From: Candidatus Delongbacteria bacterium
GTDB lineage: Bacteria > JAGOEH01
Reading direction: 5' to 3'
Assembly: GCA_017997825.1 (NCBI GenBank)
Contig: JAGOEH010000012.1
Location: forward strand, 1-32,628
DNA length: 32,628 bases
Both the position numbers and the translations under genes were made by a program. The notes under the pieces are model-generated. The model saw only the letters and a program-made list of their open reading frames with translations. It was not told the origin of the DNA and did no database searches. Shown here piece after piece: positions 1,254-30,900 of the stretch (positions are counted from its first letter, which is position 1; every line of letters begins with the position of its first letter).

Positions 1254-1565
1254 GGATTTTCACCTTTAAGGTTAAAGAGTATATCGGTCTGAAGACCCTA
1301 AATCGGGGTCAGATCAGGTCAGCACTTCATCATTCATCAAACAGATCAACGGGATCATCAAATTGGGATTGAGCGATAAGAAAATGGAATCTCGAATCCA
1401 TGAAAAAACCATAAATTTTGTGACTCAAGTTAATAAAATATTATGCGAATGTCAATATCAAATTAAAGGATCAGCCGATCAGAATCGGATCGTATTAGGT
1501 CGAGTGAAAAGGATATCCGGGGCTCGGAATCACAAGGTGATAATCACATGGATTCATGATCAGGA
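1254..1565. other. Intergenic stretch with an unconvincing plus-strand frame
   Basis: These 312 bases separate two minus-strand sugar genes. A plus-strand frame (about 1363-1599, 78 residues) is open and runs into the 3' end of the acetyltransferase gene on the other strand. It begins at TTG without a ribosome site and resembles nothing I recognise. A small palindrome (GGTCT-GA-AGACC, near 1285-1296) lies next to the kinase gene. The stretch is more AT-rich than the flanking genes and may be a gene relic or simply a leader region. Confidence 0.4.
1427..1455 (-). promoter_or_regulatory. Possible sigma-70-type promoter for the kinase-epimerase pair
   Basis: On the minus strand TTGACA (1455-1450) is followed after 17 bases by TAACTT (1432-1427). 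The -35 box is perfect but the -10 box is weak. It would give a leader of about 165 nt to the kinase ATG at 1253 and would explain the wide gap inside an otherwise tightly packed gene block. Confidence 0.35.
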
Positions 1566-3091: not shown

Positions 3092-3097
3092 TGATGG

Positions 3098-4246: not shown

Positions 4247-4409
4247 ACCAAACTCCTTGCTCATAGGTTATGGAAATAAATCGGCTAATCAGATTAGCAA
4301 ATTCGATGAATAATTCCTTTTAAAACTCATCAAACCGGCTATCAATTTATACAATACAGATTAAAAAGCAAGCCAAAATTCAAATGATTTGATAATCGAG
4401 ATGAAACGC

Positions 4410-7286: not shown

Positions 7287-7475
7287 CTTCACCCCTATGG
7301 GGCAAGCCCTATTTTTGTTTGAGTCATGATATCATTGTATAATATAGATATAAACATAAAGGCTCTTCGGATAAACATTAATCCGTTATCAATAACAATC
7401 AAAAGCTTATCAATCGTTATTTGTCAATGATCCGGGCAGGTTATTATCCGTGACCAGGTGGATGAAAACAGCTGA

Positions 7476-8747: not shown

Positions 8748-9964
8748 TTTTTTCGTCTCCAAGGCCACAGAAAGTTAAAATCATGACGCAATAAAGTTGT
8801 AATATCATGTAATTGGTTATAGACATTAGGATCATGAGCAATCAGCCATTTTCTATACTCGATCCATGCAATATGGAATAAAGAGAACAGCAAAGAAAAT
8901 AAAAAAGCAATAATGACAATGATCATCCGTTTGGGACGGCTCTTGTAGTCGGGAACGAAAGGAGGATCCAACACCTGAATGGAAGGGGTGTTTCGAACCT
9001 CATTGATGCGCTCTTGTTCATATTGAGAAGTCAGCAATTCAAATAAAACTTCCTGAATCTTTAAATCGCGATAGAGTCTCATATATTCCAATGATAAATC
9101 CGGCAATTGGTTAAACGACGGCAGAAATCGACTTTCAGCTAATGCAGAATCGTTGCTCGAGTAAAGCTGATTCAGGAGGTTCTGGGTTTCTTTTAGTTTA
9201 AGATTCAGTTCAAACTGACGGCTATTACGGCCTGAAAACTGGGAATTAAGAGCTGTCAACTCTGTTTTATAAAGAGTAATATTGGAAATCAACCCGGCTG
9301 CTGTAGAAATCAGGGCTTGAGTTTGAGTCGGTATTTCAATCAGGTTATGATTCTTTTGAAATTCATTCAAACGCTGTTCGGCCAAGGTCAGCTCTTTTTT
9401 GGTATCATTCAGTCTTTTTTCCACAAAGATCCTGCGATTGGAGGCCATAGTGAGAGTCCGCTGCTGATTCAAGGTATCCAGATACTGTAATACTTCACTG
9501 ATAATGCGGTAGGCTCCTTCAGGATCTTCTTTTTTCTCAAAAGAGATTTTAATGGCGCCTTCACGGCCGACCTCCACAAAAAATCCGGCTTTAAAAGCCA
9601 AAATCGTGGGATTCATTTTTTCAGTCCGATAATAGTTCATTAAATCACAGCGATTTATAATATGGATAGCCATGGCGTTACTTTTCAACATAGTTACCCA
9701 GACATCGGAAGGTGAAGCCAAAACCGGGAGTTCAAACCCCCCGGACTGCATAAGATTTCCGGCTAATGCACCTAATCCGCCGACCGGCAAGCTGATTCCG
9801 TTTTCACGGATCGGAGGATAGATAACGGCTTCCGACTTGTAGTATTTTGGCAAAATAAAGGATACAGCCAATGTGACCAGCGTAGTCACGGAAACGATTA
9901 TCATGATCCTTTTACGGTAAGCTACCAGCATTTTAAGATAATTGAGAAAGTTATTCATTTCCAT
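8744..9964 (-). CDS. Wzz-like polysaccharide chain-length determinant / co-polymerase
   Basis: A 406-residue inner-membrane protein with the Wzz topology: a first membrane helix at about 19-38, a long periplasmic coiled-coil region (about 170-330, rich in Gln, Leu, Asn and Glu) and a second membrane helix near 345-370, preceded by the proline-rich DPPFVPDYKSRPKR segment. It controls polymer length and, with the Wza-like exporter encoded immediately downstream, forms the trans-envelope export machine. There is no Walker-box tyrosine kinase domain on the C-terminus. The ATG at 9964 lies only 7 nt after a strong -10 box and has no Shine-Dalgarno sequence, which suggests a leaderless message. An in-frame ATG two codons later changes little. 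Confidence 0.88.
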   Translation of the reverse strand: MEMNNFLNYLKMLVAYRKRIMIIVSVTTLVTLAVSFILPKYYKSEAVIYPPIRENGISLPVGGLGALAGNLMQSGGFELPVLASPSDVWVTMLKSNAMAIHIINRCDLMNYYRTEKMNPTILAFKAGFFVEVGREGAIKISFEKKEDPEGAYRIISEVLQYLDTLNQQRTLTMASNRRIFVEKRLNDTKKELTLAEQRLNEFQKNHNLIEIPTQTQALISTAAGLISNITLYKTELTALNSQFSGRNSRQFELNLKLKETQNLLNQLYSSNDSALAESRFLPSFNQLPDLSLEYMRLYRDLKIQEVLFELLTSQYEQERINEVRNTPSIQVLDPPFVPDYKSRPKRMIIVIIAFLFSLLFSLFHIAWIEYRKWLIAHDPNVYNQLHDITTLLRHDFNFLWPWRRKK

Positions 9965-9971
9965 AAGGCCG

Positions 9972-10000
9972 ATAATACAATATCATTTGCTAAAAGTCAA
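9972..10000 (-). promoter_or_regulatory. Sigma-70-like promoter for the wzz/wza-like operon
   Basis: Minus strand: TTGACT (10000-9995), 17-base spacer, TATTAT (9977-9972). Transcription would begin about 7 nt on, at or next to the ATG at 9964. It is divergent from the promoter at 10034-10062. Confidence 0.7.
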
Positions 10001-10033
10001 GTGTGAAATACCTCCATCCCTAATAAAACTCTC

Positions 10034-10062
10034 TTGACAAACCTCATTGTATTTTTTACAAT
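10034..10062 (+). promoter_or_regulatory. Sigma-70-like promoter for the polymerase/flippase operon
   Basis: TTGACA (10034-10039), 17-base spacer, TACAAT (10057-10062). The predicted start is near 10069, five bases before a short leader reading frame (10074-10169) and about 87 nt before the polymerase start. Confidence 0.7.
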
Positions 10063-10073
10063 TTACCCGTAAG

Positions 10074-10169
10074 ATGAAAAATAAATCGATCGGCTGGTTC
10101 GAAGCCATTAGTTTTTTTCAATTCTATCCATTGATTATCAAGGACTCAATACCCAGTGAACACTATTAG
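10074..10169 (+). CDS. Possible 31-residue leader peptide overlapping the polymerase start
   Basis: An ATG at 10074 opens 31 codons (start MKNKSIGWFEAISFF) and stops at TAG 10167-10169, overlapping the first 14 bases of the polymerase frame. The predicted transcription start is about 5 nt upstream, so it would be translated almost leaderless. The polymerase itself starts at GTG without a ribosome site, so termination of this peptide could feed ribosomes to it. No homologue is recognised and the frame could be chance. Confidence 0.3.
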   Translation: MKNKSIGWFEAISFFQFYPLIIKDSIPSEHY

Positions 10170-11583
10170 GGATTTACACTTTTCATGCAGAACTGTTTTT
10201 TTAGTAACATTATTCAGTTGTGTTATCTCTGTTTTTTTATCATGGATTTATTCAATCCATGGACTTTATTATATAATATTGATCGCAACGATTCCACCGA
10301 TCATTATCGGGTTCTTTCTATCAGTAAAGGATCCTTTTTATACCTTACTGTTATTGATTATCTCAACTTCTGCCAATATTTACGGCCGGTTGATCGAAGG
10401 AAGTGTATATTCATTGACAGTTTTTCATCTCAGCACCATTTTTTTTATTATCTCATTTGCCATCAATCAGCTCACTACCAAAAAAATGTCAATCAAATTC
10501 CCACCCGTCGTGGTTCCGATTTTATTACTATATTTATTAATGTTTATATCGATCAGTTATTCACCGAATCATCAGATGGCCTTGATTAATTTTTCACGCA
10601 TGTTTCTGCTTTTTCTGCTGTCCATTTTAATATACAATATCGATATTTCAAGAAAGAAACTGTATATCATTTTTATTGTACTATTCATAAACATACTAGC
10701 TATATCGCTTTACAATCTGTATGAATTTTCCCAAATCCCGGTAAAGCAATTCCTACTTGAGCAGCTTAATCCAACTCACAGCATTACACGCACGGGTGCA
10801 AATTTCGACAACATCAATAATTTTGCGATCCTAATCGCCACAATAATTGTAAGCGTCTTTTCGATTGTATTCATATCACGGATCCCGTGGATTTACAAAA
10901 TAGGCCTCATTATATTGACCATTCCCATCTGGATATCGATCGTCACCACTTTCACCCGAAGTGTGCCAATGATCATCGGCATTTCGCTGGTCGTCATCTA
11001 TTTTTTCTCTCCCTATCGGCGGTTTTTTCATATTCTGATAATTATAAGTGTGATACTATTAACCATACTTTATTTCAATCTTGGATTTGTAAAGGTTTAT
11101 CTGGACCGAATTGTTTCAATGGTCTTAGGCAATTATGATGACTCGATATCTACCCGAGGACACTTGTTCTGGCAGGGATTTCAGATTGGACTGGATCATT
11201 TCTTTTTTGGCATCGGGTTGGAGGGTTTTCCGGTTCATTATGTCCATCAGATTCCATTTACTCAGTTAAGCTGGGAAATCATCGCCAGTCACAATGTTTT
11301 GATAACATTATTTGCCGAATTGGGATTTATGGGTCCTCTTTTATACCTTTCGATATTCTACTATTATTTTAAACTGCACGGGAAAGAAATAAGGTCGATG
11401 ACGCCTTCATTATTCAAAGCCCTCTATTTCAGTAGTGTATTGATTGTCTTGATGTATTTTCAGTTCTTTCTATTCAACACCCCCTATTTCGATGAGAATA
11501 ACTTTTGGATATTCTGGGGCGTTTCATTCCTTTTCTGGAAAACAATCCAGTCAGAAAAAATTCCACCTATTACACTATGCTGA
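10156..11583 (+). CDS. O-antigen polymerase/ligase (Wzy/WaaL) family membrane protein
   Basis: A 475-residue protein with about 11-12 hydrophobic helices spread along its length. The C-terminal half has the Wzy_C/O-antigen ligase features: TFTRSVP before a membrane helix, STRGHLFWQG, a periplasmic loop with GIGLEGFPVHY, then SHNVLITLFAELGFMGPL. Such enzymes join lipid-linked repeat units, or transfer the finished glycan, at the periplasmic face of the inner membrane. The neighbours (Wzz/Wza-like genes divergent, flippase 3 nt downstream) favour the polymerase role. The start is uncertain: GTG at 10156 has no ribosome site. The coding sequence is strikingly AT-rich compared with the sugar and efflux genes, as is common for transferred polysaccharide polymerase genes. 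Confidence 0.85.
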   Translation: MNTIRDLHFSCRTVFLVTLFSCVISVFLSWIYSIHGLYYIILIATIPPIIIGFFLSVKDPFYTLLLLIISTSANIYGRLIEGSVYSLTVFHLSTIFFIISFAINQLTTKKMSIKFPPVVVPILLLYLLMFISISYSPNHQMALINFSRMFLLFLLSILIYNIDISRKKLYIIFIVLFINILAISLYNLYEFSQIPVKQFLLEQLNPTHSITRTGANFDNINNFAILIATIIVSVFSIVFISRIPWIYKIGLIILTIPIWISIVTTFTRSVPMIIGISLVVIYFFSPYRRFFHILIIISVILLTILYFNLGFVKVYLDRIVSMVLGNYDDSISTRGHLFWQGFQIGLDHFFFGIGLEGFPVHYVHQIPFTQLSWEIIASHNVLITLFAELGFMGPLLYLSIFYYYFKLHGKEIRSMTPSLFKALYFSSVLIVLMYFQFFLFNTPYFDENNFWIFWGVSFLFWKTIQSEKIPPITLC

Positions 11584-11586
11584 TCC

Positions 11587-12894
11587 ATGTTTAAATCCAT
11601 ACTCAATACTTTAGGTACGCGGTTTATATCCGCCTTAACCTCATTCATTCTTCTCATCACCAGCGCCAACTACCTGGGCGCCGCCGGCAATGGAGTCATT
11701 GGAACGTTGCTGACATGCATCGGACTGCTGATGATGATCAACGGGATTGCAGGAGGATCTGCCTTGGTTTACTTAATGCCCCAGAATCCAAGCCGTCATT
11801 TTTTTATCCACACCCTGATCATTGCCGCTACCTGGAGCGTAATAACCTGCAGTATTAGTTGTTTGGTTTTGGGCTATTTTAACTACATTCCTCATCATCT
11901 CATCATCCATGGAATGTTGATCGGATTACTAGCCTGTAATTCTCTATTTCATGCCTTAATCCTATTGGCCAACGAAAAAGTATCCGAACATAATATGACA
12001 ACGCTCCTTCAAGTTGTTGTCAATACTTTTTTATTTATCTTAATAACCTTTATAACATCACAAGCGTCTGTAAAAACCTATTTAATTACATTGTATTGCG
12101 GTTATGGTATCAGTTATCTATATTCCTGCTGGAGAATTCTTGCTCTCTATCGATCTTTAGCACCTATCCCAGACCAATCAGATTTCATTATCAACGCAAA
12201 GCGGATCATATATTACGGTTTCATTAGCCAAATTAGCAATCTTATTCAATTTTTAAATTACCGGTTAAGTATTTTTGTTTTAAATCGGTATGTTGGTGAA
12301 GCAGAGATTGGCGTTTTCTATTATGGAATCAGGCTATCGGAAGCCATCTGGATGATATCGAGCAGTATTTCATTAGTACTCTACACTCGCATCGCAAATA
12401 CAATCAATCAGGATTATAAGGAACAGATCACTTTAAATCTTACTAAAATCAGTTTTATTGCCACATTTTTATCCGCTATGCTACTAATCATTATACCTCT
12501 GGAGTGGTTTACATTTATACTCAGCCGGGATTTTTATCAAGTTCATCAGATTATATTAGTATTATCGCCAGGAATTGTTTTTTTTAGTATCAGTACAACC
12601 TTAAGCCACTATTTCGCAGGTCAAGGGAAGTATCAAATCAATACCTACGCTAATTTATCCGGACTAATCATAACCTTAACCGGAAATGCTTTCTTGGTGC
12701 CAAAAATGGGTATCATCGGGGCAGGAATTGTATCATCCGTTTCGTACATAACCAATACAATACTGCTGATTTTCATTTGGACTAAACTAACCCATCGACC
12801 AGTGAGTAATTTCCTTGTCCATCCACACGAGATAGCACAATTATATCAACAAATTATTAAGAATAAAACTAAGAATCTACCGCCAAGCCACTGA
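11587..12894 (+). CDS. Wzx-like polysaccharide flippase (MOP/MVF superfamily)
   Basis: A 435-residue integral membrane protein with about 12 hydrophobic helices. The N-terminus (TRFISALTSFILLITSANYLGAAG) is the usual start of Wzx/RfbX flippases, where the first helix is followed by LGAAGNGVIG. The second half has the mirrored helix pattern, with LSHYFAGQGKYQINTYANLSG, a common MOP-family segment. It would move undecaprenyl-linked oligosaccharide across the inner membrane for the adjacent polymerase. It begins 3 nt after the polymerase stop, so the two form one operon. Like the polymerase it is AT-rich. No recognisable terminator follows. Confidence 0.9.
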   Translation: MFKSILNTLGTRFISALTSFILLITSANYLGAAGNGVIGTLLTCIGLLMMINGIAGGSALVYLMPQNPSRHFFIHTLIIAATWSVITCSISCLVLGYFNYIPHHLIIHGMLIGLLACNSLFHALILLANEKVSEHNMTTLLQVVVNTFLFILITFITSQASVKTYLITLYCGYGISYLYSCWRILALYRSLAPIPDQSDFIINAKRIIYYGFISQISNLIQFLNYRLSIFVLNRYVGEAEIGVFYYGIRLSEAIWMISSSISLVLYTRIANTINQDYKEQITLNLTKISFIATFLSAMLLIIIPLEWFTFILSRDFYQVHQIILVLSPGIVFFSISTTLSHYFAGQGKYQINTYANLSGLIITLTGNAFLVPKMGIIGAGIVSSVSYITNTILLIFIWTKLTHRPVSNFLVHPHEIAQLYQQIIKNKTKNLPPSH

Positions 12895-18266: not shown

Positions 18267-18295
18267 TTGACATTTCGGCAAAAGATGATCATAAT
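18267..18295 (+). promoter_or_regulatory. Sigma-70-like promoter for the tandem nonapeptide-repeat genes
   Basis: TTGACA (18267-18272), 17-base spacer, CATAAT (18290-18295), giving a start near 18302 and a leader of about 48 nt that ends in the GGAGG ribosome site. The box and spacer sequence resemble the promoter at 20657-20685. Confidence 0.7.
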
Positions 18296-18349
18296 ACTGT
18301 AAACAGAGGGATTATTACCAGAGTACTTCACTACTAACGGAGGAAGAGA

Positions 18350-18970
18350 ATGAAAAGCAAGAAATCGATTTTATTTTTAGTTTCAGTGATTTTGTTGGCG
18401 ATTGTGGCTTATTTCGGTTTATTCCATCAGCAGCCCCAACCGGAAGAGATTACCGGAACCCTGGGCGGGGTAGAAAAGGCGCAAAAGCTTCAGGCCACCC
18501 CCCTCAGTGAAGAGGATATCGCCACGTTGAAAACAAAGTATGATGATCTGCTGCAGAGCGCTGATTTTCAGAATATGATCAAATCGGACAAATTCCAGAA
18601 GGTGATGGGCGATGCCAATTTTTACGTATTTTTAGCCAATCCCAGTTTAGTCAATGTGATCGTGCCTACGGCTCAGAGCAAAGAAGTTCAGGCCTTACTG
18701 TTGGACGGGGCGTTTATTCGTGCTCTGAATTCCGGCAACAACCAGCAAATCATGGACGTCATTTACATTCATACCTTGAATGACAACACGGCACTGGTCG
18801 ATGCGCTGATGGATCCCAGCATTCAAAAGGCATTGGCCAACCCGGATTACCAAGCCATCATCCGCAGCCAGGAATTTACATCATTATGTCGGAATTCATC
18901 TTTCGTTTCAGCCTGCTATGCCAATGAACTCCAGGGACTGGTAACCTTAGGCCCTATCGAAATCGAGTGA
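18350..18970 (+). CDS. Membrane-anchored nonapeptide-repeat protein, paralogue 1 of 3
   Basis: A 206-residue protein not matching a family I recognise. Residues 6-24 form one N-terminal membrane helix with lysines before it (MKSKKS), so the body should lie outside the cytoplasm. After a GTLGGVEKAQKL linker and a conserved EEDIATLKTKYDDLLQS segment, large hydrophobic residues recur exactly every 9 positions: Phe73, Phe82, Phe91, Leu100, then Leu149, Ile158, Tyr167, Phe176, Phe185, Leu194. The unit is roughly x-x-F-x-x-h-h-x-[NSD], often followed by Pro (ANPSL, DPSIQ, ANPDY). Cys180 and Cys189 sit one repeat apart and could form a disulfide. The short helices recall STI1/DP-type repeats, which is only an analogy. 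Strong GGAGG site; first gene of a three-copy array. Confidence 0.85.
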   Translation: MKSKKSILFLVSVILLAIVAYFGLFHQQPQPEEITGTLGGVEKAQKLQATPLSEEDIATLKTKYDDLLQSADFQNMIKSDKFQKVMGDANFYVFLANPSLVNVIVPTAQSKEVQALLLDGAFIRALNSGNNQQIMDVIYIHTLNDNTALVDALMDPSIQKALANPDYQAIIRSQEFTSLCRNSSFVSACYANELQGLVTLGPIEIE

Positions 18971-19164
18971 TTGATCCTGATTGAAATGCCTTAACTCATT
19001 CTCTCGGATCCTGTGGCAATCCGTACAATAATTCCTGCCAGGTCAGTGTATAGTGGATGATTGATCTGTTCGCATGAGCGGATGCCTTTGATAACCGAAT
19101 GTATCAGATTATGAAGAACTGCATGCTGTCCGAAAGGTTTTAACCTGTGTCAAGGAGAAAAAGC

Positions 19165-19794
19165 ATGGAAAGTAAGAGTAAACGATCATTACTGATTGTT
19201 ATTACAGTGATTTTAGCGGCAATAGTCATCTATTTCGGTTTATTCCATCAGCAGCCCAAGCCGGAAGAGGTTTCCGGGACCCTGGGGGGAGTGGAAAAGG
19301 CGCAAAAGCTTCAGGGAACCACTCTCAATGAAGAGGATATCGCCACATTGAAAACAAAGTATAATGATCTGCTGCAGAGTGCTGATTTCCAGAACCTGGT
19401 CAAATCGGACAATTTCCAAAAGGTGATGGGTGATGCCAATTTTTACTTAGCTTTAGCCAATCCCAGTTTAGTCAATGTGATCGTACCGACCGCTCAGAGC
19501 AAAGAGATTCAGGGACTGCTGCAGGACAGCCAGTTCATCAAGGCTCTGAATTCCGGCAACAATCAGCAAATCATGGACGTCATTGTCGTTCGCTCATTGG
19601 ACGGCAACACCAATCTGGTCAATGCCCTGATGGATCCCAGCATTCAAAAGGTAATGGCTAATCCGGATTACCAAGCCGTCATCCGCAGCCATGAATTTAC
19701 ATCCTTATGTCAAAATTCATCCTTCGTTTCCGCCTGCCAAGCCAATGAGCTTCAAGGACTGGTAACCTTAGGTCCAGTCGATGTAGTGGAGTGA
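19165..19794 (+). CDS. Membrane-anchored nonapeptide-repeat protein, paralogue 2 of 3
   Basis: A 209-residue protein very similar to paralogue 1 over its whole length, in DNA as well as protein, so the duplication is recent. It has the same membrane helix (about 9-27), the same FGLFHQQPKPEE and GTLGGVEKAQKLQ linkers, the EEDIATLKTKYNDLLQS segment and the two blocks of 9-residue repeats, including ANPSLVNVIVP and DPSIQKVMANPDYQ. The paired cysteines (SLCQNSSFVSAC) are kept. Differences cluster in the middle of the protein. The ATG at 19165 is preferred over the in-frame GTG at 19147 because AAGGAG lies 8 nt before it. The 194-nt space from paralogue 1 has no terminator, only a weak TTGATA/TATGAA pair, so the genes may be co-transcribed. 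Confidence 0.85.
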   Translation: MESKSKRSLLIVITVILAAIVIYFGLFHQQPKPEEVSGTLGGVEKAQKLQGTTLNEEDIATLKTKYNDLLQSADFQNLVKSDNFQKVMGDANFYLALANPSLVNVIVPTAQSKEIQGLLQDSQFIKALNSGNNQQIMDVIVVRSLDGNTNLVNALMDPSIQKVMANPDYQAVIRSHEFTSLCQNSSFVSACQANELQGLVTLGPVDVVE

Positions 19795-19818
19795 AGGTAA
19801 TTTTAATGATATTACCTT
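19794..19818 (+). other. Hairpin between paralogues 2 and 3
   Basis: AAGGTAAT (19794-19801) and ATTACCTT (19811-19818) form an 8-bp stem with a 9-base loop directly at the stop of paralogue 2. No T run follows, so it is unlikely to be a full terminator; it may stabilise the upstream message or reduce read-through into paralogue 3. Confidence 0.45.
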
Positions 19819-19860
19819 ATCGTTTGAGGAGTTCCATAACCGAATTAAAGGAGGAAGAGC

Positions 19861-20472
19861 ATGGAAAGCAAGAGTAAGCGATCATTACTGATCGTTATAA
19901 CCGTGGTTTTAGCGCTTGTGGTCATCTATTTCGGCTTCTTCAATCAAAAACCCAATCCCGATGAATTAGCCGGCACCATCGGTGGAGTGGAAAAGGCCGA
20001 CAAGATTGGGAGTAACCTGACCGAAGAGGATATCGCCACCCTCAAAACCAAATACAATGATCTGATCCAGAGCGCCCCGTTTCAGAATCTGATCAAATCT
20101 CCGATCTTCCAGAAACTCGTCACGGATTCATCATTTATTGCTATCCTGTCGAATCCGGATCTCCGCCAGGACTATGTTGCTTGTCTGGCAGACGGATCAT
20201 TGAAAACCGCGTTGAATATTCCGGCAGTCATCGACCCGGTCCAGAATGCCAGTCCGACCGAAGCCATGATTGAAGCCGGGATATCCCAGGACAGCAAACT
20301 GATCCCGCTTTACGACAATCAGGATTTTCATACGCTTCTGCTAAATCCCGATTACAGAGAACTTCTTATCGACAATGATATTGCGCTTATCGTAGCCAAT
20401 CCCTCCTTTATCGATTGCTGCGCCGGCAACGAGATTCAGTCGCTGGTCACTGTATGCTGCAGTCCGCTATAA
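19861..20472 (+). CDS. Membrane-anchored nonapeptide-repeat protein, paralogue 3 of 3 (diverged)
   Basis: A 203-residue relative of the two preceding proteins. The N-terminal third is nearly the same (MESKSKRSLLIVIT, GGVEKADK, EEDIATLKTKYNDLIQS), but the rest has diverged while keeping the repeat period: Phe74, Phe83, Phe92, Leu101, then Leu147, Phe156, Tyr165, Ile174, Phe183, Ile192. The central part (about 105-145) is new in sequence, and the C-terminus has an altered cysteine set (Cys108, CC at 186-187, CC at 199-200) in place of the single spaced pair. This pattern suggests the same fold with a different surface or partner. GGAGG lies 7 nt before the ATG. A strong terminator follows 35 nt after the stop. 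Confidence 0.83.
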   Translation: MESKSKRSLLIVITVVLALVVIYFGFFNQKPNPDELAGTIGGVEKADKIGSNLTEEDIATLKTKYNDLIQSAPFQNLIKSPIFQKLVTDSSFIAILSNPDLRQDYVACLADGSLKTALNIPAVIDPVQNASPTEAMIEAGISQDSKLIPLYDNQDFHTLLLNPDYRELLIDNDIALIVANPSFIDCCAGNEIQSLVTVCCSPL

Positions 20473-20506
20473 CAATCCAATCCTTCATCATTTGATTCGA
20501 TTCACA

Positions 20507-20543
20507 GGGTTAATCGGAACGCCGTTCCGGTTAGCCCTTTTTT
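20507..20543 (+). terminator. Rho-independent terminator ending the tandem paralogue array
   Basis: GGGTTAATCGGAAC (20507-20520) pairs with GTTCCGGTTAGCCC (20524-20537) along all 14 positions, counting two G-T pairs, with a GCC loop and six T immediately after (20538-20543). Confidence 0.9.
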
Positions 20544-20656: not shown

Positions 20657-20685
20657 TTGACATTTGAGCGGAAAATGCTCATACT
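20657..20685 (+). promoter_or_regulatory. Sigma-70-like promoter for the peptidase-barrel/PrsW operon
   Basis: TTGACA (20657-20662), 17-base spacer, CATACT (20680-20685), start near 20692 and a leader of about 144 nt. The element TTGACATTT...AAAATG-TCATA is shared with the promoter of the repeat-protein array at 18267-18295, so one regulator could act on both. Confidence 0.65.
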
Positions 20686-20835
20686 ATCTTGGTCGATCAT
20701 GGCTCTTAGGTCACGCTATATCTCGGATCTCGATTAAAGAGCGTTTCTGTCGGCAACGTTATTAATGCAAACGGAATTAAACCCGGATTCATGAAATTCA
20801 ATCGGATAAATTGATGTCCCATAACGGAGATTGCC

Positions 20836-23805
20836 ATGCAGAATCGGTTTAAAATTAATTCGGTTCGACCCATCTGTTATTCCACCCTGCTTCTCTCTTT
20901 TATAGTATTAATTGCCTTGCCTTTTGACAATCAGGCCATCCCGCTCAAATTTGTCCAGACCCGTGATATGAAACTGATCCATTACAGTATGGCCCACGAA
21001 TATATTCTGCCCCATCTGGGACGCTGTTACGAAAATTCACTCCATTTTTATCAAAAGCTGTTCGATTACAATCCCAGCCAGCCGACCGGTCTGTTCCTCC
21101 AGGACTTTTCCGATCCTGGAAATGCCGGGGCTACGGCGGTTCCCTATAATTATATCACGGTTTATATCTCCCCATTTTACTATGCTTATGAAAACCTCCC
21201 CACCTATGAACGAATGTCATGGCTGATGAACCATGAGATTGTGCACGTGATTGCCATGGATCAGGCGGCACCGCGTGATCGGTTATTCCGGAATCTCTTT
21301 TTCGGGAAGGTTCTTCCCGAACCGGAGAATCCGATCAGCCTGTTCTACGGTTTTCTGACCAGCCCCCGCCGATATGCCCCTCGCTGGTATCATGAAGGCA
21401 TTGCCTGTTTTCTTGAAACCTGGACCAACCAGGGCAACGGACGGATTTTGAATCCCTATTATGAAATGGAATTCCGAAGTCTGGTTCAGGGTCAGGATCA
21501 TATCTATGATGCCGTCGGACTGGAATCGGAAGGCACGGCCATCGATTTTCAGGTCGGAAGTATGTCCTATCTTTACGGAACCCGTTTTTTCGGGTATCTG
21601 GCCCATCGTTACGGTCCCGACAAGCTGATTGAATGGTGTAAACGTGACCCAGGATCTCGGGCCTATTTTTCCAGCCAGTTTAAAAATGTTTATTCCCGGG
21701 ATCTGAACAGCATCTGGTCGGAATGGATCGACTATGAAATCCAGTGGCAGACCGGCAATCTGGAACGACTGCGTCAAAATCCGGTCACCCGGGGAAAACA
21801 GATTACCGACCGGAAGCTGGGTTCGGTTTCCCGTCCCTGGTTCGACCGGAAAGACTCATGTCTCTATTTGGCTGTCCTCTATCCAGGGGAATTGGGAAGG
21901 ATCATCCGGCTGGATATCCGGACCGGAACAATCAAACGCCTGTGCGACATTAAGGACGCCATCCCCTATGCCGTATCCTCTCTGGCTTATGACGAATCCG
22001 GCCGGAAGCTCTTTTTCACCACCGATAACAAACACTACCGGGATCTCAACCAAATCGATATCGAGACCGGAAAAACCCGACGGCTGATTACTGATCTGCG
22101 GGCCGGCGACCTGACTTTTAACCCGGCCGATCGCACTCTATGGGGTGTCCGGCGTAATAACGGCATATCCACCATCATCGTTATTCGGGAGCCCTATACC
22201 GACTGGACGGCCCTTTATGCCTTTCCTTACGGCCATGATCCCTACGATCTGGATATCTCACCGGACGGCCGGTATCTGTCCGCCGCCCTATCCGACATTT
22301 CCGGCAAACAGCGGCTGGTCCTGATGTCGCCCGAAAAATTACTGAAAGGGGATCCGGCCTGTGATACCCTCTACGATTTCGATGTCAGCTCCCCCACCAA
22401 TTTTGTCTTTTCACCCGACGGCCGGCACCTGTTCGGATCATCCTATTATTCGGGTGTTTCCAATATCTATCGCTACGATCTGGAAGAGCGGGATATCTTT
22501 ATCCTGACCAACAGCGAAACCGGGCTGTTCCGCCCGGTACCGGTCACTCCGGATTCACTGATTGCGTTTCAGCACAGCGCTCATGGATTCAATCCCATCT
22601 GGATCCGGAATCAACCCCAGGAAAAAGTCAGCGCCATTCTGTACCAGGGACAGCAGATCGTCGAGAAATACCCTCACGTCAAAGAATGGTTTCCGGGATC
22701 TCCCAAATCGATTCCGCTGGACAGTATGATCACAGCCAAAGGAGACTACCACCAAATTGGCGATCTGAAACTGCGATCCGCCTATCCGATCGTCGAAGGA
22801 TACAAGGATTATGCCGCGGTAGGGTATCGGATGAGTTTCATGAACAGCCTGGCCATCACCCGTCTAAACCTTAACTTTTCAGTATCTCCCAGCCAGGATA
22901 CACCGGAATCGGAGCGGTATCACCTTGGAATTCAATTCAAGCATTGGTTCTGGACCCTCAAAGCCGGTTACAATACGGCGGATTTTTATGATCTGTTCGG
23001 CCCGACCAAAGTCAGCCGCAAAGGACATTTCGGTTCGATCGGCTACAAAAAAAGCCTGATTTTCGATACTCCCCGTTTACTGGATCTGGATATCCAGCTG
23101 GCCGGTTATGGAGGACTCGAGCGGCTGCCCGAATCCCAGAATATTGCCGCGGATTACTCTGAAATGGTCAGCCTGAAGAGCGGTCTGGATTACCAATTTC
23201 TGCAAAAATCCCTGGGAGCCGTGGATGATGAAAAAGGCTATCATCTGAGACTCGATGGGCAAACCAACCTGGTCAACCGCCACCTCTATCCCCGATTGAT
23301 GCTGAAAACCGATTGGGGTTTTCCCCTTCCTTTCCCCCACAGTTCGCTGTGGCTCCGGAATACCTGCGGTTTTTCGTCCGGTAAGCGGGACAATCCGTTT
23401 GCCAATTTCTATTTTGGGGGATTCGGCAACAACTGGGTGGATTATCAGAGTGAAAAACGCTATCTTGAGTATTACAGCTTCCCAGGCATGGAAATCAACG
23501 CTCTGGGAGGTACCCGGTTCAACCGGGCCATGCTGGAATGCCACCTGCCTCCGGTTCGATTCAGCCGGACAGGCAACAGCCTGCTTTATCTCCGATGGGC
23601 CCGGATTTCCATGTTCGGTTCAAGCCTGATTACCAATCCCGACCACGCTTCTTCCCGCCGAGAGGTTTACAACTTGGGTTCTCAACTTGACCTGCAGGCC
23701 ATATTTATGTCGCTGCACAACCTGACCCTATCGTTAGGTTATGCCGTAGCATTGGAAGATCGTGAAACATCCAACGAATTCATGCTCTCGTTGAAACTGT
23801 TTTAA
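20836..23805 (+). CDS. Secreted HExxH peptidase / TolB-like propeller / outer-membrane barrel chimera (copy 2)
   Basis: A 989-residue exported protein with the same plan as the protein at 4410-7286. A signal peptide (hydrophobic about 14-30) precedes a gluzincin-like domain. The zinc motif is HEIVH at 133-137, with RWYHEGIACFLET at 183-195 giving the third ligand Glu187, as in peptidase MA proteins. Residues 310-590 form a TolB/WD40-like propeller (ISPDGRYLSA, FSPDGRHLFG). The last third, from about 640, has alternating beta strands of an outer-membrane barrel and ends MLSLKLF. Zinc site and third ligand are intact, so it should be active. The two copies are clearly diverged, so they are old paralogues. 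GGAG lies 7 nt before the ATG. A PrsW-type protease gene starts 18 nt downstream. Confidence 0.82.
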   Translation: MQNRFKINSVRPICYSTLLLSFIVLIALPFDNQAIPLKFVQTRDMKLIHYSMAHEYILPHLGRCYENSLHFYQKLFDYNPSQPTGLFLQDFSDPGNAGATAVPYNYITVYISPFYYAYENLPTYERMSWLMNHEIVHVIAMDQAAPRDRLFRNLFFGKVLPEPENPISLFYGFLTSPRRYAPRWYHEGIACFLETWTNQGNGRILNPYYEMEFRSLVQGQDHIYDAVGLESEGTAIDFQVGSMSYLYGTRFFGYLAHRYGPDKLIEWCKRDPGSRAYFSSQFKNVYSRDLNSIWSEWIDYEIQWQTGNLERLRQNPVTRGKQITDRKLGSVSRPWFDRKDSCLYLAVLYPGELGRIIRLDIRTGTIKRLCDIKDAIPYAVSSLAYDESGRKLFFTTDNKHYRDLNQIDIETGKTRRLITDLRAGDLTFNPADRTLWGVRRNNGISTIIVIREPYTDWTALYAFPYGHDPYDLDISPDGRYLSAALSDISGKQRLVLMSPEKLLKGDPACDTLYDFDVSSPTNFVFSPDGRHLFGSSYYSGVSNIYRYDLEERDIFILTNSETGLFRPVPVTPDSLIAFQHSAHGFNPIWIRNQPQEKVSAILYQGQQIVEKYPHVKEWFPGSPKSIPLDSMITAKGDYHQIGDLKLRSAYPIVEGYKDYAAVGYRMSFMNSLAITRLNLNFSVSPSQDTPESERYHLGIQFKHWFWTLKAGYNTADFYDLFGPTKVSRKGHFGSIGYKKSLIFDTPRLLDLDIQLAGYGGLERLPESQNIAADYSEMVSLKSGLDYQFLQKSLGAVDDEKGYHLRLDGQTNLVNRHLYPRLMLKTDWGFPLPFPHSSLWLRNTCGFSSGKRDNPFANFYFGGFGNNWVDYQSEKRYLEYYSFPGMEINALGGTRFNRAMLECHLPPVRFSRTGNSLLYLRWARISMFGSSLITNPDHASSRREVYNLGSQLDLQAIFMSLHNLTLSLGYAVALEDRETSNEFMLSLKLF

Positions 23806-23823
23806 CCCTTTGATCCGCTGATT

Positions 23824-24849
23824 ATGCCTAATAACTTTATCTTTTTCATCGCTTTGTTTCCTGTTCTGATCTACCTGGGGCTGTTGCTTTTCATGGATAG
23901 CTATAAACTGGTCCGAACGGCTCAGGTTCTATCGGTCGTCGGATATGGCATCCTGGCTGCCCTGCTCTCCTGGGGCATCAACACCGTTCTGATCGATACC
24001 ATCTCGATCCAGTTCTCGTCCTATTCCCGTTGGATCGCCCCTTGGATCGAAGAAAGTGTTAAGGCTTTCTTCATTCTCATTCTATTGAAAAAATCCCGGC
24101 TGGCATTTCTGGTGGACAGTCTGATTTATGGATTTGCAGTCGGTACCGGATTCGCCCTGATTGAGAATATCTACTATTACCTCCATCTCCACTCCGTAAA
24201 TCCCGCCATTTGGATTATTCGGGGAATCGGAACGGCAGTCATGCATGGAGGATGTACCGCCATCTTCGCCCTGATCACCAAACGACTGTACGACGGTTCT
24301 TGGCTGCGGGCCTGGCGGTGGGCGATTCCAGGGTTGGCCATCGCCGGTCTGCTTCACGCTATGTTCAATATGGTTTACTTTCATCCGATCGTGACGTCAA
24401 TCATCCAAGTCATATTGTTTCCCGTCATTGTCATTCCCATCTATCGTCAAAGTGAACGAAACCTGAAAAACTGGTTGGAAATCGGGATGGATACCGATAT
24501 AGAATTGCTCGAATCCATCAAATCCGGCCGGATTCTGCAAACCCGAATCGGGATTTATCTCCAATCACTCAAGGATCGGTTCACACCCATTATATTGGGA
24601 GACATGCTGTGCTATCTCCAGATTCACTTGGAGCTGGCCGTTCGGGCCAAGGGTGTTCTGCTTTTGCGGGAAGTCAACATGAATTTGCCCGACGATCCCG
24701 ATATCCAGGCTAAATTTACCGAACTGGAGTATCTGAAAAGAAACATTGGCCCCACCGGCCGCCACATCATCGACACCTTCATTCATTATAATACCCGCGA
24801 TCTCTGGCATATTTATTTCCTAACCCCCAACCAACTCCCTAAGAAATAA
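23824..24849 (+). CDS. PrsW-family intramembrane protease
   Basis: A 341-residue membrane protein with about eight helices and the family signatures. EESVK at 76-80 holds the paired glutamates; GTGFALIEN at 107-115 adds Glu114; RGIGTAVMHGG at 133-143 adds His141; and LLHAMFN at 176-182 adds His178. In Bacillus subtilis PrsW cuts the anti-sigma factor RsiW; related CPBP-type enzymes do other intramembrane cleavages. A soluble C-terminal region of about 130 residues (from 210) follows the membrane core and is longer than in short PrsW forms; its role is unknown. Starting 18 nt after the peptidase-barrel gene with no promoter between, it is probably co-transcribed with it. No anti-sigma factor gene is nearby. 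Confidence 0.87.
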   Translation: MPNNFIFFIALFPVLIYLGLLLFMDSYKLVRTAQVLSVVGYGILAALLSWGINTVLIDTISIQFSSYSRWIAPWIEESVKAFFILILLKKSRLAFLVDSLIYGFAVGTGFALIENIYYYLHLHSVNPAIWIIRGIGTAVMHGGCTAIFALITKRLYDGSWLRAWRWAIPGLAIAGLLHAMFNMVYFHPIVTSIIQVILFPVIVIPIYRQSERNLKNWLEIGMDTDIELLESIKSGRILQTRIGIYLQSLKDRFTPIILGDMLCYLQIHLELAVRAKGVLLLREVNMNLPDDPDIQAKFTELEYLKRNIGPTGRHIIDTFIHYNTRDLWHIYFLTPNQLPKK

Positions 24850-24996: not shown

Positions 24997-25425
24997 ATGA
25001 ATCGATCATGGCCAATAGCGCCGGTGTGGATGATTGTCATCCAGTTTACACTCCTTCAGTTTATGGGAGCCCGCGGGTATGTGTTATGTACCACCGATCA
25101 TGGAAGAACGGCACTGGAGCTGTGTACCACCACCTGTGAATGCCGTCAGATCACCCATCATACCTGCCCGATTTCCCATGCTTCCGCTCTGACCGCCTGT
25201 CATCAAGAGACAGCCTGTCAGGATATTCCCATTCTCGATAAAATCAAATCGTTAAATCCACTTCATGAATTCCCCAAATGCATTGACCTCCAATCGCTTG
25301 AAATCGATCCAGCATTTCCCCCTCTTCCGATTGAGTCCCGGTTGACCCCAAACGGTACCGATCCCCCGCTCCCATCAGTCAACAAGAATCTTGATCGTCT
25401 AAAATCGGTCATTCTGATTATTTAA
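24997..25425 (+). CDS. Exported Cys/His-rich small protein upstream of heavy-metal RND genes
   Basis: A 142-residue protein with an N-terminal hydrophobic helix (about 10-25, likely signal or anchor). It is followed by a dense metal-ligand region: Cys31, 43, 47, 49, 57, 68 and 74, with His35, 54, 55, 61 and 69. The pattern C-x3-HGRTALE ... CxxxCxC ... ACQDIPI resembles small proteins I know only as hypotheticals beside Cus/Czc-type efflux genes (C-x-x-x-G-H-V-A-L-E ... C-x-D-I-P). The remaining C-terminus is Pro-rich and of low complexity. A periplasmic metal-binding or metal-sensing role is likely but inferred. The gene starts about 200 nt before the TolC-like gene and has a GAGG site. A HYC_CC_PP-type family label is possible. 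Confidence 0.7.
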   Translation: MNRSWPIAPVWMIVIQFTLLQFMGARGYVLCTTDHGRTALELCTTTCECRQITHHTCPISHASALTACHQETACQDIPILDKIKSLNPLHEFPKCIDLQSLEIDPAFPPLPIESRLTPNGTDPPLPSVNKNLDRLKSVILII

Positions 25426-25627: not shown

Positions 25628-26911
25628 ATGAAAGCTCATCATCTCATTTTTATCCATCTGTTATGGATCGGGTGGATTCAGGGACAGAGCGCCGACAGCC
25701 TGGCTCGCATGGCGATCCGGCATGATCCGGAACTGATCCGGGCCGCCCGTCAGGTTGAACTGGCCAAGCTTGAACAAAGAGCCGCCGGATCTTTCGCCCC
25801 GATCGAATTGAATTTCAGTTTGGGAGGCATTGAGGATTTCAGTCGGATTGACCGCAGCGATGAAAAAAGCCTCGGAATATCGAAATCATTCAGTTGGCCG
25901 GGAATCAGAACCGCAAAACACCAATCGGCCGGGCAGGCGCTCCGATTGGCCGAATTGGAACTGGAACAGACACTGAAATTTAAAACCCGTAGTATTCGGG
26001 ATCTGTTATTGCATCGCTCTTATCACACAACACTCTCGGTTCGATGCCGGAATCTGATCTCCACCCTCCAAAAATTGTCGGACATCACCCAAACTCGTTA
26101 CGGATTGAAGCAATCCCCATACAGTGATCTGGTGGCGATTCGGATGGAACTCACCCTGCTGGAACAGGATCTGGCGGATCATCAGCAGGCTAAGGCGGAG
26201 CTGGAAACCCGCCTCAAAATCATGACCGGATGTGATTCTCTGCCCGATCCGGATTCATCGATGCTGGAACCGGCTGATCTGCCCTATTCATCGGCGGAGA
26301 CTGCCCAAGCGGAGTTGATCCGACAATCATTTCGTTACCAAATGATCCAGATTCAGCAAGCCAGGCTTGAAACGAACCGAAAGCTGAGCCGGCTGGAACT
26401 GATTCCGGTTCTCAGCCTTGGGATATCGCATGACTGGAACGAAAACGATCCTCCATTCAATCTGAACGATTATGAAGGCCGTCCGGGAAAGAGTTGGGGT
26501 ATTGAAGGCAGTTTTACAATCCCCCTGTTTTTTCTTCCGGCATCCCAGATCCCGGGCAAAACCATCGAACTTGAGTCCAGGGTGGACCGGCAGATCAATA
26601 CTCTGATTACACAGGCACAGCCTCAAACCATATCCGATGCTTATCGGTGTTTGACAATCCGGATCGAACAGCTTAACCGCTTTCAACAGAGTATCCTGCA
26701 CGATGGAGAGATAGAGATGCAGAATTTGCTGGACCGGTATGCGGCCGGACATATTGCGCTTTCGGAGGTCATGCTCTACCTCCATAACCTGACCCGATAT
26801 CGAAATGAGTATGAAGAAGCCCGGCTGCAGTACGGACTGGCCTTGAATGAACTGCACGTATGTGCAGAAATCGATCCCTATACCGAAAAGGAAACCGACC
26901 ATGACAATTAA
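25628..26911 (+). CDS. TolC/CusC-like outer-membrane efflux protein
   Basis: A 427-residue protein of the outer-membrane efflux family. A signal peptide (about 1-19, ending WIQGQS) is followed by two related long helical halves: ARMAIRHDPELIRAARQVELAKLEQRAA opens the first, and AELIRQSFRYQMIQIQQARLETNRKL the second. Each also has a barrel hairpin (LNFSLGGIEDF; LSLGISHDW). No lipobox Cys is seen, unlike CusC. It forms the exit channel of the tripartite metal pump with the two downstream proteins. The ATG follows AGGA by about 8 nt. The gene overlaps the membrane-fusion protein gene by 11 nt (ATG at 26901 before the stop at 26909-26911), so translation is coupled. Confidence 0.9.
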   Translation: MKAHHLIFIHLLWIGWIQGQSADSLARMAIRHDPELIRAARQVELAKLEQRAAGSFAPIELNFSLGGIEDFSRIDRSDEKSLGISKSFSWPGIRTAKHQSAGQALRLAELELEQTLKFKTRSIRDLLLHRSYHTTLSVRCRNLISTLQKLSDITQTRYGLKQSPYSDLVAIRMELTLLEQDLADHQQAKAELETRLKIMTGCDSLPDPDSSMLEPADLPYSSAETAQAELIRQSFRYQMIQIQQARLETNRKLSRLELIPVLSLGISHDWNENDPPFNLNDYEGRPGKSWGIEGSFTIPLFFLPASQIPGKTIELESRVDRQINTLITQAQPQTISDAYRCLTIRIEQLNRFQQSILHDGEIEMQNLLDRYAAGHIALSEVMLYLHNLTRYRNEYEEARLQYGLALNELHVCAEIDPYTEKETDHDN

Positions 26912-27977
26912 ATACATTCTGGCCCCGGCCATCGCCCTGATGGGACTGATCCTCGGATGCAACCAATCGGAAAGCGAATCCTCCCATCATCATGAAGAAG
27001 AACAGGCCGTGATTGACCATATCATCATTTCATCCCAGGCCCTGCGGGAAAACCATATCAAAAGCCGACGGATGGAATTGGAGTATTTATCGGCGGAAAT
27101 CAAAGCCACCGGCACCGTAGAGGCGGATCCGGCGCGGGTATTCTCCATTGCCCCCCGGGTGTCGGGCTGGATCAAAACCATTTATGGCCGGCCAGGGCAA
27201 AAAGTCCAGCGCGGCGATCTCCTGGCAGAAATCCATAGTCCGGAATTCATTGCCGCCCAGCAGGAATATCTGAATCTCGTTTCCGGATCACTCCAAGCCC
27301 AGGCCGATCAGCGTCTCCGATGGCTAGGCCTCACATCCCACGACATCAGCCTGATTCGCTCCAATCAAACCGTGATGGAATACTATCCCCTCCGGGCTTC
27401 CGCTGCCGGATCGGTAACCGCTTCGGAACTATCCGTCGGAGATTTTGTGGATGCCAATCAATCCCTGGGAACGATCACCGACATCTCAGCCGTCTGGGTA
27501 ACGGCCCGTTTCCAGGAGCAAGCCCTGATGAATATTCATTTACCGGCTCAGGCCATCATGCAAACCTCAGCCTGGCCCGGATCGAGTTTTACCGGCCGGC
27601 TCAACTTAATCGAGGAGGTTATCGATCCTGAAACCCGGACCATCGGGGGCCGGATTGAAATCCCAAATCCTGATCGGAAGCTGAAACTGGGGATGTTTAT
27701 GACGATTCATCTACAAAGCGATAATCCGGCCGCACCACCGGCCCTGTATGTCCCGGAAGAAGCGGTCCAGCGGCTGGATGGCGTTCCGTTTGTCTTTGTT
27801 TGTGAAAATGATACCACATTCATCAAACGGGATATCGATCCGGGAAAGACCCTGCACGGACGAATCGAGATTAAGGCGGGACTGAAAGCCGGCGACGTCA
27901 TCATCATCGAGGGCAGTTTTCTGCTCAAATCCGAAATGATGAAAAATTCGCTGGAAGGACATGATCATGCTGAATAA
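26901..27977 (+). CDS. CusB/CzcB-like membrane-fusion lipoprotein
   Basis: A 358-residue adaptor protein of a heavy-metal RND pump. The N-terminus is a lipoprotein signal with the lipobox LILGC (Cys20), followed by a His/Glu-rich stretch (SSHHHEEEQ, 27-35) that could bind metal. The barrel-sandwich hybrid (lipoyl-like) domain shows in SGWIKTIYGRPGQKVQRGDLL and the second half in LRASAAGSVTASELSVGDFV. A beta-barrel domain follows (VWVTARFQEQALMNI; DPETRTIGGRIEI), then a membrane-proximal domain (LYVPEEAVQRLDGVPFVFV). The ATG at 26901 is chosen over longer in-frame starts because it gives the correct lipoprotein signal and the short overlap with the previous gene. It overlaps the pump gene downstream by 17 nt. 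Confidence 0.9.
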   Translation: MTIKYILAPAIALMGLILGCNQSESESSHHHEEEQAVIDHIIISSQALRENHIKSRRMELEYLSAEIKATGTVEADPARVFSIAPRVSGWIKTIYGRPGQKVQRGDLLAEIHSPEFIAAQQEYLNLVSGSLQAQADQRLRWLGLTSHDISLIRSNQTVMEYYPLRASAAGSVTASELSVGDFVDANQSLGTITDISAVWVTARFQEQALMNIHLPAQAIMQTSAWPGSSFTGRLNLIEEVIDPETRTIGGRIEIPNPDRKLKLGMFMTIHLQSDNPAAPPALYVPEEAVQRLDGVPFVFVCENDTTFIKRDIDPGKTLHGRIEIKAGLKAGDVIIIEGSFLLKSEMMKNSLEGHDHAE

Positions 27978-30900
27978 AATCATCGAGTTCTGCCTTCAGC
28001 ACCGAAAGACCATACTGTTCATGGCCTTGCTCGGCGTCGGCATGGGAATCTGGAGTATCCGCCGCCTACCCATCGAAGCCCTGCCCGATGTTACCAATGT
28101 CCAGATCGAAATCGTCAGCACCTCCAATGGATTTTCTCCATTGGAAATCGAGCAGTTCGTCACCTATCCCATCGAAATGGAAATGAAAGGATTGCCGGGG
28201 CTGGAGCAGCTGCGTTCAGTCAACAAGTATGGGATTTCGGTTGTGACCCTGGTTTTTACCGATCGAACCGATATCTATTTTGCGCGGGAACAGACCGCTC
28301 AACGGCTGAATGAAATCCGGGAGAAGCTGCCGGAAGGGGTCGAGGTCGAGATGGGCCCTATCGCGACCGCATTGGGCGATATCTATCAGTATACCCTGGA
28401 GGGCCAAATGCCGGCCGATTCGGCCGAGGCCGTCCAGTACCTGACTGAACTCCGAAGCCTCCAGGACTGGGTCGTGGCCCCCATGCTCAAAGGAATACCC
28501 GGCATCAGCGAAATCAACTCGTTCGGCGGATATGTCAAGCAATACCAGATCATCCTGCGGCCCGAATCGTTGATCAAATATCGACTGACGGCATCCGAAA
28601 TCGGCGAATTGATCGACCGCAACAATCGGAACCGGGGCGGATATCTGGACATCAGTCCCGAACAGCAAGGCATCATCCGTTGCATCGGGTTGATCCGATC
28701 CATTGACGATATGCGCCGGATCGTGGTTAAAAACCAAAGCGGGATCCCGGTCTACCTGGAGGATATCGCGGATTTCCAAACCGGACAGGCCCTCCGGCAG
28801 GGAGCGGCTCTGAAAAATGGCGGAATTGAAGCCGTCGGCGGGATTATCATGATGCTGAAGGGTGAAAATGGACTTGAACTGGAAAAGGCTATCGCCCGGA
28901 AAGTGGAAGAGATCAACCGCAACCGGATTTTGCCGGAAGGGATCCGGATTGTCCCTTACTATCGTCAATCACCCCTGATCCAGAGCAGCATCCGAACCGT
29001 GCTCAAATCCCTGGCTGAAGGTTCGATCCTGGTCCTGCTGGTACTGATGTTTTTTCTCCGCAATCTGAGAGGATCCATCGTTATCCTGATTTCACTACCG
29101 CTCTCCATTCTGGGCGCCATGATCGGCCTGAAGCTGGCCGGCATCCACGCCAACCTGATGTCATTGGGCGGCCTGGCCATTTCGATCGGAATGATTGTGG
29201 ATGCCACCATCATCCAGGTGGAAAATGTCCAGCGACATTTATCCGAATCCAGGGATCAGCTTCCGTTTCGGGATTTGGTCAGAATGGCGGTCATGGAAGT
29301 CCGCCGTCCCAGCATCTTTGGGGAACTGATCATTGCGCTGGTCTTCATTCCCATCCTGGCCCTGCAGGGCTTGGAAGGTAAAATGTTCAGCCCGCTGGCG
29401 CTGACGGTATCCATAGCTCTCTTGTCCTCCCTGATCATATCGGTATTCGTCAGCCCGGTTTTGTGCAGCCTGGTTTTAAGGCATCGGATCGAGAAAGCCA
29501 ATCCGTGGATGGACCGGCTCCAGAACGGATATTCATCCATCCTGAGCTTAGCCCTTCGATACCGCAAAACCGTATTGGGAGGGGCATTGATCCTGTTGAT
29601 ATCGGCCATTTTCCTAATTCCCCGCCTGGGGCGCGAATTCTTGCCGATCATGGATGAGGGGGCCTTCGACATGGATATCCAGATACTGCCGGGCGTCTCA
29701 TTGGATAAAGCCATGGATATCAATCGCCAAATCCAGCGGAAACTGCAGACATTTCCCGAACTGGTATCGGTCGTTTCCAAAACCGGCCAAACCGGAATTG
29801 CCCTGGAAGCGCGTAGTGCGGACAAAACCGGTTATGTCGGTACGCTCAAGCCTCATTCGCAATGGCAGACAGCCAAGACCAGACGGGAATTGTTTGCGGC
29901 CATGCGGGACAGCATCTCCACTATCCCGGGATTCCTCTTCGGATTCAGCCAGCCTATCCAGTGCCGGATCGATGAATTGGTGGCCGGAACCCGCGCCCAG
30001 CTAATGATCAAGGTTTTCGGAACGGATCCCGACAGCCTGTCGCGCCTGGCCAACCAGATTGCTCGTGAATTGTCGAGCCTACAGGGGACAACCGACCTAA
30101 TGGTGGAAAAAAACCAGGGTCTTCCCTATCTGGTGGTGGATTTGAATCGGGAAGCCTTGGGACGCTATGGCCTGACGGCTCAGGAAGTCATGGAATTCAT
30201 TCAGGTGGCTTTTGATGGAGCCGTGATCACCCGGATTTATGAGCAAAACCGCTTTTTCGACTGTATTCTCCGATTTCCCGAATCGTATCGGCAGAGCATT
30301 CAGCAGGTCAGACAACTAAGTTTCCAGAGCCAGGACGGCCGCACCATTGACTTAGCGGCGCTGGCCGATATCAGGATGGAAGAGGGACCGGTCCAGATCA
30401 GCCGTGAAAACGGGATGCGCTTTGTCGGGATTGAACTGAACATCACCGGGCGCGATCTGGTCGGTTATGTGGAACAAGCCCGCGATACGATTCAGGGTAA
30501 AATGATTCTCCCTGAAGGGTACTTCCTGGAATGGGGCGGCCAGTTTGAAAACCAGGCGCGGGCCATGACCCGTCTGATGATCATCGCACCAATGGTCATC
30601 GGCCTGATTATCCTGCTTCTCATCATTACATTCCGGGCCGTCAAACCGGCTCTGCTGGTCCTCTTCAACCTTCCCTTCGCTCTGATCGGGGGCGTCTGGA
30701 GCCTGTATCTGGCCGGCCAATACCTGTCGGTACCTGCATCGATCGGCTTTATCGTGCTGTTCGGAGTAGCCGTATTGAACGGCATGGTACTGGTATCCCA
30801 TATCATGGAATTGAAATCCAAGGGATGCGAAATGAATGATGCCGTGACCCGGAGCTGCCGAGTCCGATTACGGCCGGTCCTGATGACAGCCATGACCACC

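Follow-up and report, generated by a model that had tools for sequence, protein, structure and literature searches.

Three tandem genes in the window (the whole stretch of 32,628 nucleotides analysed here) encode membrane-anchored proteins built of very short units with a nine-residue hydrophobic period, and they are followed by the genes of a large HExxH protein and of a PrsW-family intramembrane protease, an association nearly always kept among their relatives from several phyla of bacteria. These repeat proteins are probably a functional component of an envelope stress or quality-control system that has yet to be described.

Architecture and Predicted Fold of the Repeat Proteins

Repeat protein 1 (P1; 18350-18970, + strand, 206 aa) is composed of a transmembrane helix at residues ~5-24, a GTLGGVEKA segment at residues 36-44, and short-helix repeats spanning residues ~71-198. 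Repeat protein 2 (P2; 19165-19794, + strand, 209 aa) shares 79% identity with P1, the most likely start of its gene being the ATG at 19165, preceded by AAGGAG, rather than the GTG at 19147. Repeat protein 3 (P3; 19861-20472, + strand, 203 aa) has diverged to 40% identity with P1 and keeps the same hydrophobic period. As proposed in an earlier note on this DNA, each of the three tandem genes encodes a single N-terminal hydrophobic helix together with an EEDIATLKTKY segment, in which no residue differs among P1, P2, and P3. The anchor positions named in that note are likewise all hydrophobic, both in P1 (F73, F82, F91, and L100, followed by L149, I158, Y167, F176, F185, and L194) and in P3 (F74, F83, F92, and L101, followed by L147, F156, Y165, I174, F183, and I192).

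Lag 9 gave the top hydrophobic autocorrelation between lags 3 and 30 in P1, P2, and P3 (0.30, 0.34, and 0.38, respectively), a score reached by none of the 2000 shuffles made for each of them. Residue identity at this same lag is only 11-12% in the array proteins, and the two values together indicate that what recurs every nine residues is hydrophobicity, not a remnant of recent duplication. To call it strict was nonetheless an overstatement, since it is interrupted by steps of 11-16 residues and one of the relatives (G184) shows a period of 8.

AlphaFold2 modelling of P1, with an input alignment of 5 sequences, predicted a membrane helix, after which ~14 short helices begin at residues 54, 71, 80, 89, 98, 111, 120, 131, 147, 156, 165, 174, 183, and 194, mostly spaced by 9 residues, with block pLDDT values of 74-94 across residues 61-190. 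The repeats that the earlier note described are therefore recovered, though not their division into two separate blocks, as the model presents one continuous array with some longer steps. A similar helix spacing was predicted for the relative L009, the G001 protein, in a model of low confidence (mean pLDDT 45). These predicted helices, together with a period kept across lineages, argue for the selected fold of short stacked helices that had been suggested, and the structure prediction run on P1 displays a repeat architecture to which Foldseek found no similar solved fold. When the P1 model was compared by Foldseek with the PDB (best E 1.9) and BFVD, no convincing fold match appeared, nor did one in a second look with VIA-align (best Z 3.0), neither result by itself proving a new fold; STI1 structures were not among the matches listed by either program, which does not exclude the STI1 hand fold. 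The fold would be a solenoid of very short amphipathic helices, each unit contributing ~7 residues of helix and ~2 of turn, and we know of no helical repeat of comparable kind with a unit shorter than 9 residues.

Family Assignment and STI1 Likeness

Pfam and NCBIfam scans of P1-P3 returned no family above cut-off, in agreement with the expectation that the array proteins themselves belong to no curated family of these collections. PDB sequence searches produced nothing significant, either with P0002, whose best match (E 0.0075) was partial and judged to be chance, or with the family N-terminal profile A4, and the literature search on nonapeptide-repeat solenoids found no description of them. 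The STI1 flavour that the earlier note saw in these helices does find an echo: STI1-HOP_DP (PF17830), the sole Pfam family recurring widely in the repeat family, is matched by 8 of its 21 members at E <= 0.01, the array proteins remaining below cut-off. Against the Pfam gathering cut-off of 29.1 bits, which applies to the whole-protein score, P1 and P2 scored 17.0 and 18.9 bits and P3 was unmatched; the relatives L009 and L044 passed it with 57.4 and 120.9 bits, scores inflated by repetition. Sti1 DP1 and DP2 also ranked 1 and 3 among the six weak, non-significant PDB sequence matches to the G001 repeats. In STI1 domains, a groove formed by short helices binds hydrophobic segments (PMC8010706, PMC13083928).

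Relatives and Lineage-Specific Units

Genome-collection searches identified relatives of the array proteins in nine genomes of Cloacimonadota and in seven further ones. The family is characterized by a short basic N-terminus, one transmembrane helix, a G-T-[IML]-GG-VEKA-like segment (GTIGGVEKA), and a repeat array, the juxtamembrane segment being its best conserved part. Lengths range from 203 to 1135 aa, more than fivefold, and 20 of the 21 members show a significant hydrophobic lag 9, the longest of them, that of G184, being the exception. The units themselves vary with lineage. Cloacimonadota have SQDFQKxxx (for example, L014), G001 and G185 intersperse ADPNFQALM and ADRPWKWQKLF, G188 has a unit of 18 residues (MSNAKSAQVMQSAAFGE, with variants), G459 carries ASDGFAKLV, and of the two repeat genes of G323 one (L098) has ANASFREAL and the other a 22-residue variant. 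Within genes, units are homogenised in several lineages, being near-identical in some relatives, and they are unlike each other in the array proteins, G110, G075, and G115, where lag-9 identity is 11-16% and the hydrophobic period is kept.

Three copies in tandem occur only here, relatives having a single one, except for two separate copies in G184 and in G323. The three-gene array, which the earlier note took to behave as a unit, is absent from the relatives, and what is conserved is the repeat gene with the genes of the peptidase/propeller/barrel protein and of PrsW. At L068 (3904-5252; G185), the repeat gene frame is broken between the membrane helix and the repeats, by either a lesion or an assembly error. 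L023-L026 and G143 were discarded as relatives, their weak one-helix or partial matches looking like chance.

Conserved Linkage to Two Proteases

The gene at 20836-23805 (+ strand) encodes a conserved partner of 989 aa with an HExxH zinc-peptidase motif (NHEIVH; EGxAxxxETW), a propeller region, and a probable outer-membrane barrel, and the one at 23824-24849 (+ strand) a PrsW-family intramembrane protease (Pfam PF13367, E 2e-21); these peptidase and PrsW genes, at 20836-24849, belong with the array. No Pfam peptidase model matches the ~980-aa partner, which retains 44-53% identity between phyla, and its H133, E134, and H137, together with the downstream glutamates E187/E194 of EGxAxxxETW, are invariant in all readable homologues. 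Its propeller similarity is weak (TolB-like; PD40), many residues are invariant in its C-terminal part, and the outer-membrane barrel is deemed probable from a weak Omp85_2 match. Regarding PrsW, the catalytic motifs EE..K, EN, H, and H..FN are invariant in the alignment wherever readable. A 960-aa protein encoded elsewhere in the window (4410-7292, - strand) resembles the ~980-aa partner in architecture, with an HExxH-like HEFRH motif and PD40 propeller repeats, and has no adjoining repeat gene.

With a single exception, all assessable intact cases have the repeat gene directly 5' of the ~980-aa gene; in G074, the peptidase gene is present with no repeat gene before it. The PrsW gene comes next wherever the contig extends far enough, on the opposite strand in G305, an intact PrsW gene being unconfirmed in G459 and downstream of the second copy in G323. 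Co-occurrence, which is nearly perfect, was evaluated with Fisher tests that treat genomes as independent, an assumption that does not hold. Among 125 Cloacimonadota genomes, both genes were found in 9, the repeat gene only in 1, the peptidase gene only in 2, and neither in 113 (p 3.5e-11), a count from which the chance matches L023-L026 to the repeat profile are left out. The repeat-only genome, G117, carries a degraded gene with an in-frame stop and a frameshift (L034, 5795-6600) and no peptidase, and the peptidase-only ones are G074 and G121, in which the contig starts within the peptidase gene. Among 386 sampled genomes, with close peptidase homologues counted, the corresponding numbers were 5, 1, 0, and 380 (p 8.6e-11; entering the six distant peptidase homologues as peptidase-only gives 3.9e-8), the repeat-only case being G450, a doubtful match covering the TM region alone. 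The link of the repeat protein to the peptidase has as much support as sequence data can give.

Promoter-like Elements and Genomic Context

A promoter-like element, TTGACA-17-CATAAT (site 18267-18295, 11/12), precedes the array within a 30-mer (18267-18296, + strand) that is shared, with 23/30 identical positions, by a second copy located before the peptidase gene (20657-20686, + strand). On the + strand of the region, no promoter-like site scores above these two, and a match as high as theirs was obtained in none of 1000 dinucleotide shuffles, other upstream regions in the window matching the 30-mer at 17-19 positions. No third site with <=2 mismatches exists in the 3.58-Mb genome; considering that the pattern was built from the 18267 and 20657 sites, their own match arises by construction, and it is the absence elsewhere that is informative. 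A terminator-like hairpin (20506-20538, + strand; 15 bp, loop 3, T-run) follows the array and would divide the array and peptidase transcripts, though promoter- and terminator-like sites are in total no more numerous in the region than in shuffles. Of the claim that the array has its own promoter and terminator, the promoter-like site and the hairpin with its T-run stand, and the array as a stand-alone unit does not.

Elsewhere in the window, a cluster of surface-polysaccharide type, judged from ORF translations only, occupies 258-12894, with genes for a sugar kinase, an acetyltransferase, a dehydrogenase, an aminotransferase, Wza/Wzc-like proteins, and ligase/polymerase-like and flippase-like membrane proteins. 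At 25628-31068 are genes for an outer-membrane factor, a membrane-fusion protein, and an RND pump, by eye of the heavy-metal efflux type, preceded by that of a small cysteine-rich protein, probably secreted (24997-25425).

Sigma and Anti-Sigma Genes beside the Repeat Gene

Genes for an ECF sigma factor and a one-TM anti-sigma lie directly upstream of the repeat gene in six genomes (G001, G185, G188, G305, G323, and G459), with GAF-SpoIIE, HATPase, and STAS genes 5' of the pair in several genomes and, in G323, two short frames, one possibly a gene, between the anti-sigma and repeat genes. SigW is the best NCBIfam profile for the ECF sigma, below cut-off, and a PrsW homologue is read in the same cluster in 4 of these six genomes. 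Homologues of the L068 anti-sigma were found in all six and in G184, and at E <= 0.001 there is none in this genome (G000), none beside the array, and none was found in the Cloacimonadota genomes searched. In G184 (L108, 6060-7941), the pair sits at a separate locus, and after it comes the N-terminal part of a second repeat gene, otherwise masked as N, an arrangement suggestive of a cluster broken up by rearrangement. Soon after their membrane helix, the anti-sigmas at L102-L107 and L108 exhibit a [GA][TS][IM] motif that resembles the GTIGG of the repeat proteins, both being possibly a shared protease recognition site. In B. subtilis, PrsW is one of the two membrane proteases that cut RsiW (PMC5358783), and it has been described as the site-1 protease (PMC3482391).

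Proposed Function and Alternative Explanations

A tentative reading, to which we grant somewhat less than even confidence, is that a membrane-anchored periplasmic solenoid acts as a partner in an envelope module with the peptidase and PrsW, binding clients or partners and gating proteolysis. The repeat proteins would be anchored in the inner membrane with the solenoid facing the periplasm, and the module would consist of the repeat protein, the outer-membrane HExxH peptidase/propeller/barrel protein, and PrsW. By analogy with STI1/Hop-DP domains, the helix array may expose a putative hydrophobic face or groove, able to bind exposed hydrophobic client segments or the partner proteases; binding would sense misassembled envelope proteins and gate cleavage by both proteases. 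The output, in several lineages, would be an ECF sigma similar to SigW, freed by a PrsW-type site-1 cut of its membrane anti-sigma; since no anti-sigma was found here or in Cloacimonadota, the module there would act directly in quality control. What the sequence analysis itself demonstrates is the anatomy, the periodicity, the predicted fold, the gene linkage and co-occurrence, the conservation of catalytic motifs, and the promoter-like element in common. We infer from there the periplasmic location, the client binding, the gating of proteolysis, and the link to a sigma pathway, and the periplasmic partner-binding role earlier envisaged gains support, now with a conserved linkage to two proteases. 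It is also possible, with more reservation, that these proteins constitute a new class of periplasmic alpha-solenoids with 9-residue units and are the subunit by which a trans-envelope stress module with two proteases, undescribed so far and shared by several poorly studied phyla, senses its clients; the repeat sequence would be replaced by lineage while period and partners stay fixed.

The main rival to client sensing is that the repeat protein is a substrate, cut near GTIGG by PrsW and/or the outer-membrane peptidase, with release of the repeat domain as the signal or functional event. The best conserved segment, juxtamembrane G-T-[IML]-GG-VEKA, is placed where a site-1 cut would be expected, the anti-sigmas of the same clusters carry the similar [GA][TS][IM] motif past their membrane helix, and two proteases are encoded next door. 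However, the shared motif is just three residues long and was noticed post hoc, and a regular fold under such strong selection suggests that the repeats exceed the role of a cleaved tail. We consider this explanation rather unlikely. Lower still we place a passive tether or spacer, by which the solenoid would form a physical connection between the inner membrane and the peptidase/barrel protein of the outer membrane: one N-terminal anchor followed by an extended regular array, and a partner that is probably in the outer membrane given the weak Omp85_2 match and the C-terminal invariant residues, would suit it, but a more than fivefold length range is unfit for a fixed intermembrane gap and weakens the idea of a fixed-length ruler, and this genome has three short versions.

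Two further explanations concern the repeats as sequence. The near-identical ANASFREAL units of L098 and SQDFQKxxx units of L014, encoded beside two proteases, might recall a precursor of repeated nonapeptides, signals or antimicrobials matured by these enzymes; such a precursor should keep the peptide sequence and not a fold pattern, whereas the array units are not alike and the period is kept, and on that ground it was rejected as very improbable. Homogenisation of units within genes in several lineages could speak for low-complexity drift, the period being a functionless remnant of recent tandem duplication, but the period outlives unit similarity in some members and gene linkage is tight across phyla, so that drift is largely refuted and hardly credible.

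A client-sensing solenoid in a two-protease module would be a testable envelope system named for phyla with almost no genetics, based on a gene set that recurs in several lineages (short-helix repeat protein, peptidase/propeller/barrel protein, PrsW, and often a SigW-like sigma/anti-sigma pair). It would supply a bacterial periplasmic counterpart of STI1-type client binding, as well as a case of a repeat protein that swaps its sequence wholesale while the period stays.

Comparison with Known Systems

STI1/Hop DP domains (PF17830; Sti1 DP1, 2LLV, and DP2, 2LLW; Sgt2-C; ubiquilin STI1) resemble the repeat family in their runs of short amphipathic helices, the frequent DP/NP at turns, and the hydrophobic positions along one face. 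They differ in that their 5-6 helices form a hand, in co-chaperones of the eukaryotic cytosol, whereas the repeat family is bacterial and membrane-anchored, with ~14 to >100 short units of regular length.

The six relatives recall the regulated intramembrane proteolysis of the SigW-RsiW-PrsW system of B. subtilis in that genes for an ECF sigma of SigW-like type and for an anti-sigma with one TM helix lie in the cluster of the repeat gene, a PrsW homologue being read in four of these clusters. By contrast, the hosts here are judged to be two-membraned, a repeat protein and a peptidase/propeller/barrel protein are additional, and this genome and Cloacimonadota yielded no anti-sigma homologue.

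The DegS-RseA-SigmaE system of E. coli senses misfolded outer-membrane proteins. The likeness to it lies in the proposed logic, by which envelope misassembly would gate site-1 proteolysis; no DegS-like protein is seen in the module, and the proteases present belong to other families, the proposed sensor being a helix solenoid.
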